DNA of 64,000 nucleotides from Cohnella laeviribosi DSM 21336 (lineage in GTDB: Bacteria > Bacillota > Bacilli > Paenibacillales > Paenibacillaceae). The position numbers and the translations under genes were made by a program. The notes beneath the pieces were generated by a model. The model was not told where the DNA came from. It did not search any database and worked only from the letters and a program-made list of their open reading frames with translations. The DNA lies in assembly GCF_000378425.1 (NCBI RefSeq), contig NZ_KB899826.1, forward strand, positions 1-64,000. The letters are read 5' to 3'. Below, in pieces: positions 32,029-34,266 of this stretch (position 1 is its first letter; every line of letters begins with the position of its first letter).

Positions 32029-32144
32029 GGCCGCCTCTTTGCTTTTCCCTTAGGGATGGCCGCCTCTTCGCTCTTCCCGTAAGGACTGCCGCCTCATTGC
32101 TCTTTCCGTAAAGATTGCCGTCTCTTTGCTCTTTCCGCAGGAAC
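32029..32144. repeat. 29-nt tandem repeat, four copies
   Basis: Four contiguous 29-nt units start with GGCCGCCTCTTTGC, GGCCGCCTCTTCGC, TGCCGCCTCATTGC and TGCCGTCTCTTTGC. Each ends with a small self-complementary segment (for example TCTTTCCGTAAAGA) whose arms vary together between units. Noncoding; begins 4 nt after the DUF1128 stop. Confidence 0.88.
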
Positions 32145-32229
32145 GGCCGCGCGGACGGTTTGTTTGATCGGCAGACCGTCCGTTTCTTTTGGTCGGCAAG
32201 CCGTCCGTTTCCGATTTTTCGGATATTTA

Positions 32230-32250
32230 TTCGATATCCCGTCGCCTCAG
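32230..32250 (+). repeat. Dispersed 21-bp motif, copy 1
   Basis: TTCGATATCCC followed by GTCGCCTCAG, related to the 21-bp motif at 32565, 32514 and (inverted) 34246. The bases just outside (TTTAT) resemble those outside copy 4. Confidence 0.7.
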
Positions 32251-32380
32251 AAAATCCCCCTTCCTTCCGGTTCGGCCTCGGCCTTTGGTTGTCCCGTCCG
32301 CTCAGAACCCTCCGTCCTCTTTGCCCTCGACATGCCGTCAAACACAAGCCAACAAGACATGCTTGCCGTCTAATATAACG

Positions 32381-32496
32381 TCTATGACATCTATGACATT
32401 TATGACGTTATGACATTTATGACGTTTATGAGGTTTATGAGGTTTATGACGCCTATAACGCCTATAACGCCTATGACGCCTATGACGCCTATGACG
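32381..32496. repeat. 9-nt tandem repeat, about 13 copies
   Basis: Units of the form YYTATGACR, drifting from TCTATGACA through TTTATGACG and TTTATGAGG to CCTATAACG and CCTATGACG. One unit is 8 nt long, so no reading frame is conserved. Noncoding. Confidence 0.92.
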
Positions 32497-32513
32497 CCGT
32501 GTTCGTCCTTTTC

Positions 32514-32534
32514 GCCGATATCCCCTCGATTCAG
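32514..32534 (+). repeat. Dispersed 21-bp motif, copy 2 (diverged)
   Basis: GCCGATATCCCCTCGATTCAG; shares CGATATCCC and the final TCAG with the other copies. Confidence 0.5.
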
Positions 32535-32564: not shown

Positions 32565-32585
32565 TTCGATATCCCGTTCGCTCAG
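32565..32585 (+). repeat. Dispersed 21-bp motif, copy 3
   Basis: TTCGATATCCC followed by GTTCGCTCAG (then G). It matches the inverted copy at 34246-34266 at 20 of 21 positions. Together they bracket the SOS promoter, the transposase-like gene and the 18-nt array. Confidence 0.8.
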
Positions 32586-32643: not shown

Positions 32644-32672
32644 TTGAAATGCGAACATACGTTTGGTATACT
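32644..32672 (+). promoter_or_regulatory. Sigma-A promoter of IS1595-like gene
   Basis: TTGAAA and TATACT with an exact 17-nt spacer, about 45 nt upstream of the ATG at 32718. The spacer is occupied by a LexA box. Confidence 0.82.
32652..32665. promoter_or_regulatory. LexA/SOS box
   Basis: CGAACATACGTTTG fits the Gram-positive SOS box (CGAACRNRYGTTY plus a palindromic last base). It lies wholly between -35 and -10, so LexA binding would block polymerase. This predicts DNA-damage induction of the downstream gene. Confidence 0.75.
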
Positions 32673-32717
32673 TGTTATGGAAAATGATTCCGTTCGGAAT
32701 AGCGGGAGGGCAAAACG

Positions 32718-33629
32718 ATGGAAATCCTGGTTGCTTTTGCGGATTTCTGCCGCATGTTCGGCAGGGAAGAAGACTGCATCGACGCTTTGTTCGCCGCCAA
32801 ATGGCCGGATGGGTTTCGCTGCGCGCGCTGCGGACATCCTCATGCATATGTCATTTCCTCGCGCCGTCTCCCGCTGTATGAATGCCGCGCTTGCCGAAAG
32901 CAGACTTCGTTAATTGCCGGAACGGTCATGGAAGGCAGCCGCACCCCGCTCCGCATTTGGTTTCAGGCGATTTATCTTCATTCCCGTCCGGAGGGCGTCA
33001 ACGCGCGCCAACTCTCCAAGATTTTAAAAGTTACGTACAAAACGGCATGGCTGATCTGCCACAAGCTCCGATACGCGATGAGCCGCGCTGAGGCAAAGCA
33101 GCTTCTGACCGGAATCGTACACGTCAAAAACGCCATCTATCATCGGAAAATCAGCGCTTCGCCCAAATGGCATAAACAGGAGCATCCCCTTCTCGCCGGA
33201 GCATCGATCGATAGGGAAAACCGTTTTACCCGGCTAAAAATTAAAGTTCAACCTATTCCGGACGGCGCCTCAAAGTATAGAGTTCCCAAGACGGATTCGT
33301 TCCTGGCTCAGCATGTGGACCGCACAGCGCAGGTGGTTATGCTGCCCGCATACAAAGGAAGCGAGCTCAAGATGCTGCTGGGCAAACTTGTCTGGGAATC
33401 CGAGTCCTGGATGGCCAAACGGTTCCGCGGCATTGGGGGTAAACATCTGCAAGTTTATCTTGACCATTTCTGCTATATGTGGAACCGTCGAGCCCGACCG
33501 ATGTTCGAAGAACTCCTTCGAGATTGCGCGATCACGCCGGCCATTACCTACCCGAGGTTGACAGGCTCCAAAACAAGCCGACGCAGACTTTCGCGAATCG
33601 CCGCAGTTCTTGTTAAAGCAGCCAACTAA
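32718..33629 (+). CDS. IS1595-family transposase-like protein, probably catalytically dead
   Basis: 303 residues. The N-terminus is a clear IS1595 zinc ribbon: PDGFRCARCGHPHAY, then YECRACRKQTSLIAGTVMEG, followed by the typical PLRIWFQAIYL and VTYKTAWLICHKLRYAM helices. In the following ISXO2-like domain the usual VEVDETY motif with the first catalytic Asp reads VHVKNAIY, and the late YLDEF motif reads YLDHF, so the catalytic acidic residues appear lost although the frame is open. The C-terminus (HLQVYLDHFCYMWNRR) is otherwise family-like. ATG 32718 has GGGAGG upstream. Whether it is a decaying IS or a domesticated DNA-binding protein is open. Confidence 0.85.
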   Translation: MEILVAFADFCRMFGREEDCIDALFAAKWPDGFRCARCGHPHAYVISSRRLPLYECRACRKQTSLIAGTVMEGSRTPLRIWFQAIYLHSRPEGVNARQLSKILKVTYKTAWLICHKLRYAMSRAEAKQLLTGIVHVKNAIYHRKISASPKWHKQEHPLLAGASIDRENRFTRLKIKVQPIPDGASKYRVPKTDSFLAQHVDRTAQVVMLPAYKGSELKMLLGKLVWESESWMAKRFRGIGGKHLQVYLDHFCYMWNRRARPMFEELLRDCAITPAITYPRLTGSKTSRRRLSRIAAVLVKAAN

Positions 33630-33769: not shown

Positions 33770-34212
33770 TTTTGCGCATCCATTGGAGGTCTGGGCATCC
33801 TGTTGAGGTTTGCGTTTCCTTCGAGGTCTTTGCATTCTTTGATGTTTGCGCATCCATTGGAGTCTGCACATCCTTTGATGTTTGCGGTATCCCTCGAGAT
33901 CTGCGAATCCTTGATATTTACGTATCCTTCGAGGTTTGCATATCCTTTTGAGGTTTTGCTCAGCTATTTGAGGTTTGTGCAACCTTTTGATATTTAGGTA
34001 TCTTTTGAGGATTTGCATCCTTGAGATTTACGTATCTTTTGAAAATTTGCATCCTTTGGAGGGTTTACATCCTTTGGAGGGTTTACATCCATTGGAGGAT
34101 TTGCATCCGTTGGAGGATTTGCATCCGTTGGAGGATTTGCATCCATTGGAGGATTTGCATCCGTTGGAGGTTTTGCATCCGTGGGGAAGTTCGTGCATCT
34201 TTTTGAGATTTT
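33770..34212. repeat. Degenerate 18-nt repeat array (clean core 34046-34189)
   Basis: Eight contiguous 18-nt units in the core follow TTTGCATCCNTTGGAGGA, for example at 34100-34117 and, identically, 34118-34135. To the left, ~15 more diverged units (such as GCGCATCCATTGGAG near 33777) reach back to about 33770, with conservation falling away from the core. No spacers of unique sequence, so not CRISPR. Both strands stay open by chance (18 is a multiple of 3), but no start/SD supports a gene. 33630-33769 shows nothing recognisable. Confidence 0.88.
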
Positions 34213-34245: not shown

Positions 34246-34266
34246 CTGAGCGAAGGGGATATCGAA
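34246..34266 (-). repeat. Dispersed 21-bp motif, copy 4 (inverted)
   Basis: The reverse complement reads TTCGATATCCC then CTTCGCTCAG, 20/21 identical to copy 3 in the opposite orientation. Confidence 0.8.

Follow-up and report, generated by a model that had tools for sequence, protein, structure and literature searches.

Transposases of the IS1595 family (NF033547) combine a zinc ribbon, a helical DNA-binding region and a C-terminal KHLQxYLDEF block, and their elements end in inverted repeats. The gene described here, from a 64,000-nucleotide stretch of the genome of Cohnella laeviribosi DSM 21336 (the window), shares these traits, and catalytic-type IS1595 relatives also carry LexA operators like its own; unlike them, it belongs to a family in which the catalytic set is broken, the ends appear multiplied into arrays and many loci are syntenic between species. 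CENP-B and SETMAR are eukaryotic domesticated transposases that bind dispersed transposon-end sequences. The present protein is likewise transposase-derived and is predicted to bind arrays, but it is bacterial, stems from IS1595 and lies under a LexA operator.

Two further bacterial systems invite comparison. REPINs are described as inverted doublets of short repeats (PMC3116915), and in the REPIN-RAYT pairing a transposase-like gene is accompanied by short extragenic repeats, which are dispersed and also form inverted pairs (PMC3116915, PMC8266576). RAYTs are tyrosine transposases, whereas the present family shows DDE descent, has no catalytic set and carries a LexA operator; it shares the gene-linked dispersed repeats in inverted pairs and lacks a tyrosine (HUH) transposase. 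In the case of ISCR, presumed to transpose by a rolling-circle mechanism, a LexA operator overlaps the transposase promoter, as here, and induction by DNA damage has been shown in tests in E. coli; ISCR is not a dead, array-flanked family (PMC13393415). Searches of an open-access library turned up neither LexA-controlled IS1595 elements nor the dead family or its repeats, and the papers there that name both LexA and IS1595 look unrelated.

The window gene and its LexA operator

The promoter, LexA box and intact zinc-ribbon IS1595-like frame claimed by a first-pass annotation of the window were all recovered at their positions. Read from the sequence, the promoter is of sigma-70 type (TTGAAA-17-TATACT, 32644..32672, + strand), with its -35 element TTGAAA at 32644-32649, a 17-bp spacer and its -10 element TATACT at 32667-32672. 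Within the spacer lies the LexA operator CGAACATACGTTTG (32652..32665, unstranded), of which the 4.48-Mb assembly holds two exact copies and none besides, one at the window gene and the other in the promoter of lexA (TIGR00498, 262 bits); the YneA-like gene on the other side of the lexA promoter scores 56.8 bits, slightly below the model cut-off of 60. A possible decayed second operator, GAAAATGATTC, is located 27 bp downstream of the first (32680..32690, unstranded), where the sequence does not match the core, and the window gene keeps one operator.

The ORF itself encodes 303 aa (32718..33629, + strand), starting with ATG preceded by GGGAGG. It matches Pfam Zn_ribbon_IS1595 (E 5e-11) and, with 80.6 bits, lies above the curated cut-off (75) of the IS1595 transposase model NF033547; only IS1595 profiles reach their cut-offs with this protein. 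Its layout comprises a zinc ribbon (C35, C38, C56, C59), the helical region, a core without the catalytic set and a conserved C-terminal block, GIGxKHLQxYLDxFCY. The helical region is probably helix-turn-helix-like and the core RNase H-like: in an AlphaFold model of mean pLDDT 93 the predicted order of strands and helices suits a degenerate RNase H core, while a Foldseek search against the PDB gave no match at E <= 0.001 and only weak matches, many of them RNase H-like. A known defence protein was excluded, there being no PADLOC match.

Among the matches listed, relatives of the window protein occur in 64 of 100 related genomes. Every one of the 37 Cohnella genomes belongs to these, with between 2 and 23 matches, although some of the matches in this survey are catalytic-type or decayed relatives and not members of the dead family. 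When 398 genomes were drawn evenly across the phylum, five, including the window's own, matched at E <= 1e-30. The member sample analyzed below consists of 101 genes from 34 genomes, 31 of them Cohnella (98 retrieved loci, the window gene, its paralogue and two further loci); it was drawn from strong matches among those listed, leans to intact copies and lies outside six Cohnella genomes (G005, G012, G013, G027, G034 and G036). L068, decayed and devoid of the zinc ribbon, and L094, with a broken frame, were dropped before counting. The former lies in the window's own genome (contig C9:44493-45158) and is followed after 34 bp by a single array-like repeat (3 mismatches).

The exact LexA core, GAAC-N4-GTT, is found upstream of 99 of the 101 members as against 4 of 791 control windows, so that the box is indeed conserved in relatives. 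At least two exact cores precede 51 members, with 45 of 53 spacings falling at 26-28 bp, and a box within one mismatch of CGAACNNNNGTTYG is present in 84 of 101 members but in only 1/99 and 3/100 control windows. In 13 members inspected individually the first operator lies within the promoter spacer, similar to the arrangement in the window. Thus, the window gene has the conserved operator over its promoter that is typical of the LexA regulon; a box arising by chance was ruled out by its identity to that of lexA and by the conservation of the core.

Catalytic loss, selection and synteny

Catalytic residues were assigned by applying the IS1595 DDE/DDN motif to an alignment with catalytic-type relatives. 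The VHVKN of the window copy, read earlier as a substitution for VEVDE, indeed faces their VELDD; the segment with the second acid (SDAY) is missing, and around the third position, the N of 'ISNAKAF' in catalytic-type relatives, the window copy reads LVWESESW. Hence, measured against the DDE/DDN motif, its first acid is replaced, its second-acid segment absent and its third residue lost, which bears out the dead active site of the first-pass annotation. Its second catalytic change, from YLDEF to YLDHF, does not survive the alignment, which places the third catalytic residue at the N of 'ISNAKAF' and not in YLDEF. The loss is also not particular to the window copy: when 20 members were aligned with catalytic-type relatives, all 20 lacked the SDAY segment and the ISN residue, and 16 lacked the first acid, with four C. 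silvisoli copies retaining Asp there. Throughout residues 126-235 no column is acidic in more than 70% of the 101 members, the acidic columns lying outside this range (D/E125 in 89/101 and D249 in 78/101). This family-wide loss excludes a single insertion sequence that died recently. The DNA-binding module, in contrast, is intact as proposed, with 14 residues of the zinc ribbon and helical region invariant in 101/101 members (C35, C38, C56, C59, Q62, T69, W81, T106-T109, W111, K116 and R118).

Between species dN/dS is mostly saturated, and the values given here come from within four paralogue groups, in which the medians are 0.23 for the 15 C. silvisoli copies, 0.21 and 0.13 for two groups in G054 and 0.28 for G009. 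These medians of 0.13-0.28 point to purifying selection. In each of the four groups residues 1-122 show a lower dN/dS than the core, and single pairs reach 0.46 across the whole protein.

Of 99 loci, 41 fall into ten syntenic sets, defined by common neighbors on both sides between species. The largest of these spans 11 genomes; an rRNA operon beside this largest set was sought and not found in L107, L117 and L125 at Rfam gathering thresholds. Purifying selection coupled with synteny across species, the combination expected of a domesticated transposase, is therefore seen in the family, while the window's own copy has no syntenic relative among the loci compared. The window unit sits between galT and a small conserved gene, without an NCBIfam match, that is probably DUF1128-like. 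In a survey of 30 of the 37 Cohnella loci of this small gene, window included, the 29 others have no member or repeat within 1.5 kb, and galT adjoins the gene in 18 of these 29. As these loci are empty, arrival of the window unit within its own lineage is the most likely course; the expectation of syntenic sites thus holds for much of the family and fails for the window copy, which is not at a site common to the Cohnella loci examined.

Copies have also multiplied within genomes. In the tree the nearest kin of some members lie at different sites of the same genome (L107/L108 and L112/L113), and the 15 C. silvisoli copies examined form a single clade. What near-identical copies have in common varies. 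In L165/L166 and L163/L164 it is the gene without its flanking arrays, along with the promoter in L165/L166, and therefore not a product of whole-unit transposition; in L095/L096 it is the gene and the upstream array and nothing more; in L142/L143, L077/L078, L104/L105 and the C. silvisoli copies the flanks are alike on both sides. The gene-only pairs would be accounted for by gene conversion, and those with shared flanks by movement of a unit. Two side observations concern these copies: in L165/L166 and L163/L164 homology ends directly past the stop codon, and several recent C. silvisoli copies (L079-L093) seem, by eye, to lie just past poly-T, terminator-like stretches.

Inward-facing repeats and the ends of catalytic-type elements

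The first-pass annotation overlooked a prominent feature of the locus, namely the inverted repeat arrays around the gene. An 18-bp core, GATATCCCNTTCGCTCAG, flanks both the window gene and its paralogue on contig C1, facing inward on both sides. In the window, terminal-repeat-like copies pointing towards the gene lie upstream at 32233..32250 (+, 3 mismatches) and 32568..32585 (+, 0 mismatches), with a divergent copy, GATATCCCCTCGATTCAG, at 32517..32534 (+), which has the looser form ATCCC-N6-TCAG and fails the stricter scan described below; an inverted copy lies downstream at 34246..34263 (-, 0 mismatches). Much of the intergenic sequence around the gene is further taken up by tandem repeats, with units of 9 to 30 bp upstream of the promoter (32029..32498, unstranded) and an 18-bp unit in 7.7 copies downstream of the ORF (34045..34182, unstranded).

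Across the family such inward repeats of about 20 bp stand in arrays; the window's site is empty in the relatives examined. A strict scan (at most 2 mismatches, within 750 bp of the gene) recovered repeats at 64 of 101 genes, with 106 upstream copies in + and 1 in - orientation, 80 downstream copies in - and 0 in +, and no copy in 350 kb of outer flanks; this strict orientation and absence from the outer flanks exclude unrelated interspersed elements. With a looser pattern, WTCCC-N4-8-TCAG, picked after the C. silvisoli variant had been seen, each of the 101 genes is accompanied by one or more inward copies and 94 are flanked on both sides, the inward copies exceeding outward ones by 295 to 5 upstream and 180 to 0 downstream, as against 38 copies in 351 kb of outer flanks. 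The match between upstream and downstream repeats is 0.55 within the same element, 0.475 between elements of the same genome and 0.39 between genomes. The repeat (at most 2 mismatches) is present in 35 of 37 Cohnella genomes, whereas a reversed control pattern gave one match overall. It also occurs away from the genes: 23 gene-free loci, chosen from five genomes, show no member-like match at E <= 1e-4, with one doubtful match at 0.008 (L073). Twelve of them hold opposite-facing neighbors, all inward, in 13 pairs within 1 kb, and the other 11 do not.

The repeats resemble the ends of catalytic-type IS1595 elements. When the array consensus was compared with 16 catalytic-type relatives, its best match fell 86-97 bp upstream of the start in 14 of them, with 11 to 14 of 20 bases agreeing; in the exceptions, L182 and L255, it lies elsewhere. 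Shuffled sequence equals the match in 0 to 440 of 1000 trials across the 16 relatives, and since single-locus matches are accordingly weak, it is their constant position that carries the weight of the resemblance. An inverted copy of the end is also found downstream in L175 and L179. For the catalytic-type element of the window's own genome, no more than 13 of 20 bases of the end repeat agree with the array consensus, which makes cross-binding to those ends uncertain.

LexA operators, too, are common to these relatives. Eight of them retain the first acid and have the start region covered (L175, L177-L182 and L195), and an exact core lies upstream of seven, at -100 in L181 and only at -26 in L195; none was found upstream of L182, nor of L194, whose first acid is Gly. 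Six more relatives from the 398-genome draw, all with LDD or LDE motifs, have the core in 6/6; several of the catalytic-type relatives scored for it have stops in frame. L252-L257, L175, L177-L181 and L195, with their LexA cores, make up an SOS-type IS1595 subgroup from several families of the phylum, and L074 (contig C38 of the window's genome) is a split catalytic-type copy with LexA boxes on either side of a -10-like TATACT. Since catalytic-type elements also have LexA operators, the SOS control predicted for the window gene and its family was probably inherited from the transposon. In a tree rooted on four catalytic-type rows these split with full support from the 101 members, and LexA control and repeats probably predate the loss of catalysis, a direction of change that depends on this choice of root.

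A predicted SOS-induced DNA-binding protein and its rivals

From sequence comparison we favor, as somewhat better than an even prospect, the reading of the window gene as coding for a domesticated, SOS-induced protein predicted to bind arrays derived from transposon ends. The ORF would belong to an old IS1595-derived family that lost the catalytic set and kept the DNA-binding part; LexA would repress the gene via one or two operators over its promoter, such that DNA damage induces it; and the zinc ribbon with the adjacent helical region would most likely bind the flanking arrays. These arrays, which are found elsewhere in the genome as well, would descend from the parent transposon's terminal inverted repeats. 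In that case the protein, induced in the SOS response, may bind DNA in an architectural or regulatory capacity, possibly covering transposon ends during the induction of related IS1595 elements that are likewise under SOS control. The domesticated SOS factor of the first-pass annotation is in keeping with the catalytic loss, kept binding residues, LexA core, selection and synteny. It is less easily squared with ongoing spread and recent copies in some genomes, as a purely domesticated factor need not spread, and with a window copy that looks newly arrived. A bolder version, which we put forward tentatively, is that of an equivalent of CENP-B or SETMAR in bacteria: a dead transposase, induced in the SOS response, whose end targets have been multiplied into genome-wide arrays, and which may hold down transposon ends or organize the chromosome when damage activates live elements, and whose copies would be kept alike by gene conversion.

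A serious rival, though on balance an unlikely one, is a non-autonomous unit moved in trans, in which the dead protein marks the ends, another transposase cuts, and the binding half is selected for mobility and not for the host. The presence of the window unit at a site that is unoccupied in all 29 other Cohnella loci examined, the recent copies with shared flanks and arrays (the 15 of C. silvisoli, L142/L143, L077/L078 and L104/L105) and the inverted, transposon-end-like repeats around the genes all speak for it. Yet 41 of 99 loci are in sets syntenic between species, the arrays are not shared in L165/L166 and L163/L164, which are among the most alike pairs, and in C. silvisoli a catalytic-type query at E <= 1e-40 retrieved only members without the full catalytic set. 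Improbable to our minds is a selfish pair after the manner of REPINs and RAYTs, whose protein would process the repeats by an unrecognized chemistry and so spread inverted pairs: gene-free repeats do exist, with inward-facing pairs at 12 of 23 such loci, much like the inverted doublets described for REPINs (PMC3116915), but residues 126-235 hold no conserved acidic set in the 101 members, the second-acid segment is missing in the 20 aligned ones, and the only profiles to reach cut-offs are those of IS1595. Least credible by far is a decaying insertion sequence with a frame intact by chance; while the decayed L068 in the same genome and the broken copy L094, outside the count, show that relatives do decay, the DNA-binding residues are invariant in 101 members, dN/dS is well below 1, and LexA core and arrays are kept, such that selection and conservation contradict it.

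The reading as a domesticated, SOS-induced array-binding protein has implications for genes which, matching an 'IS1595 family transposase' profile, are easily dismissed as mobile debris, and for which we propose, from sequence comparison, a cellular role. If it is true, a whole genus has several copies of an unrecognized SOS-regulon DNA-binding family together with its own dispersed arrays, a system that derives from a transposon and took over its damage control. Such a system would provide a case of the regulation and end sequences of a selfish element turning into a host system, and would bear on whether dead transposase relatives restrain transposition in bacteria during DNA damage.
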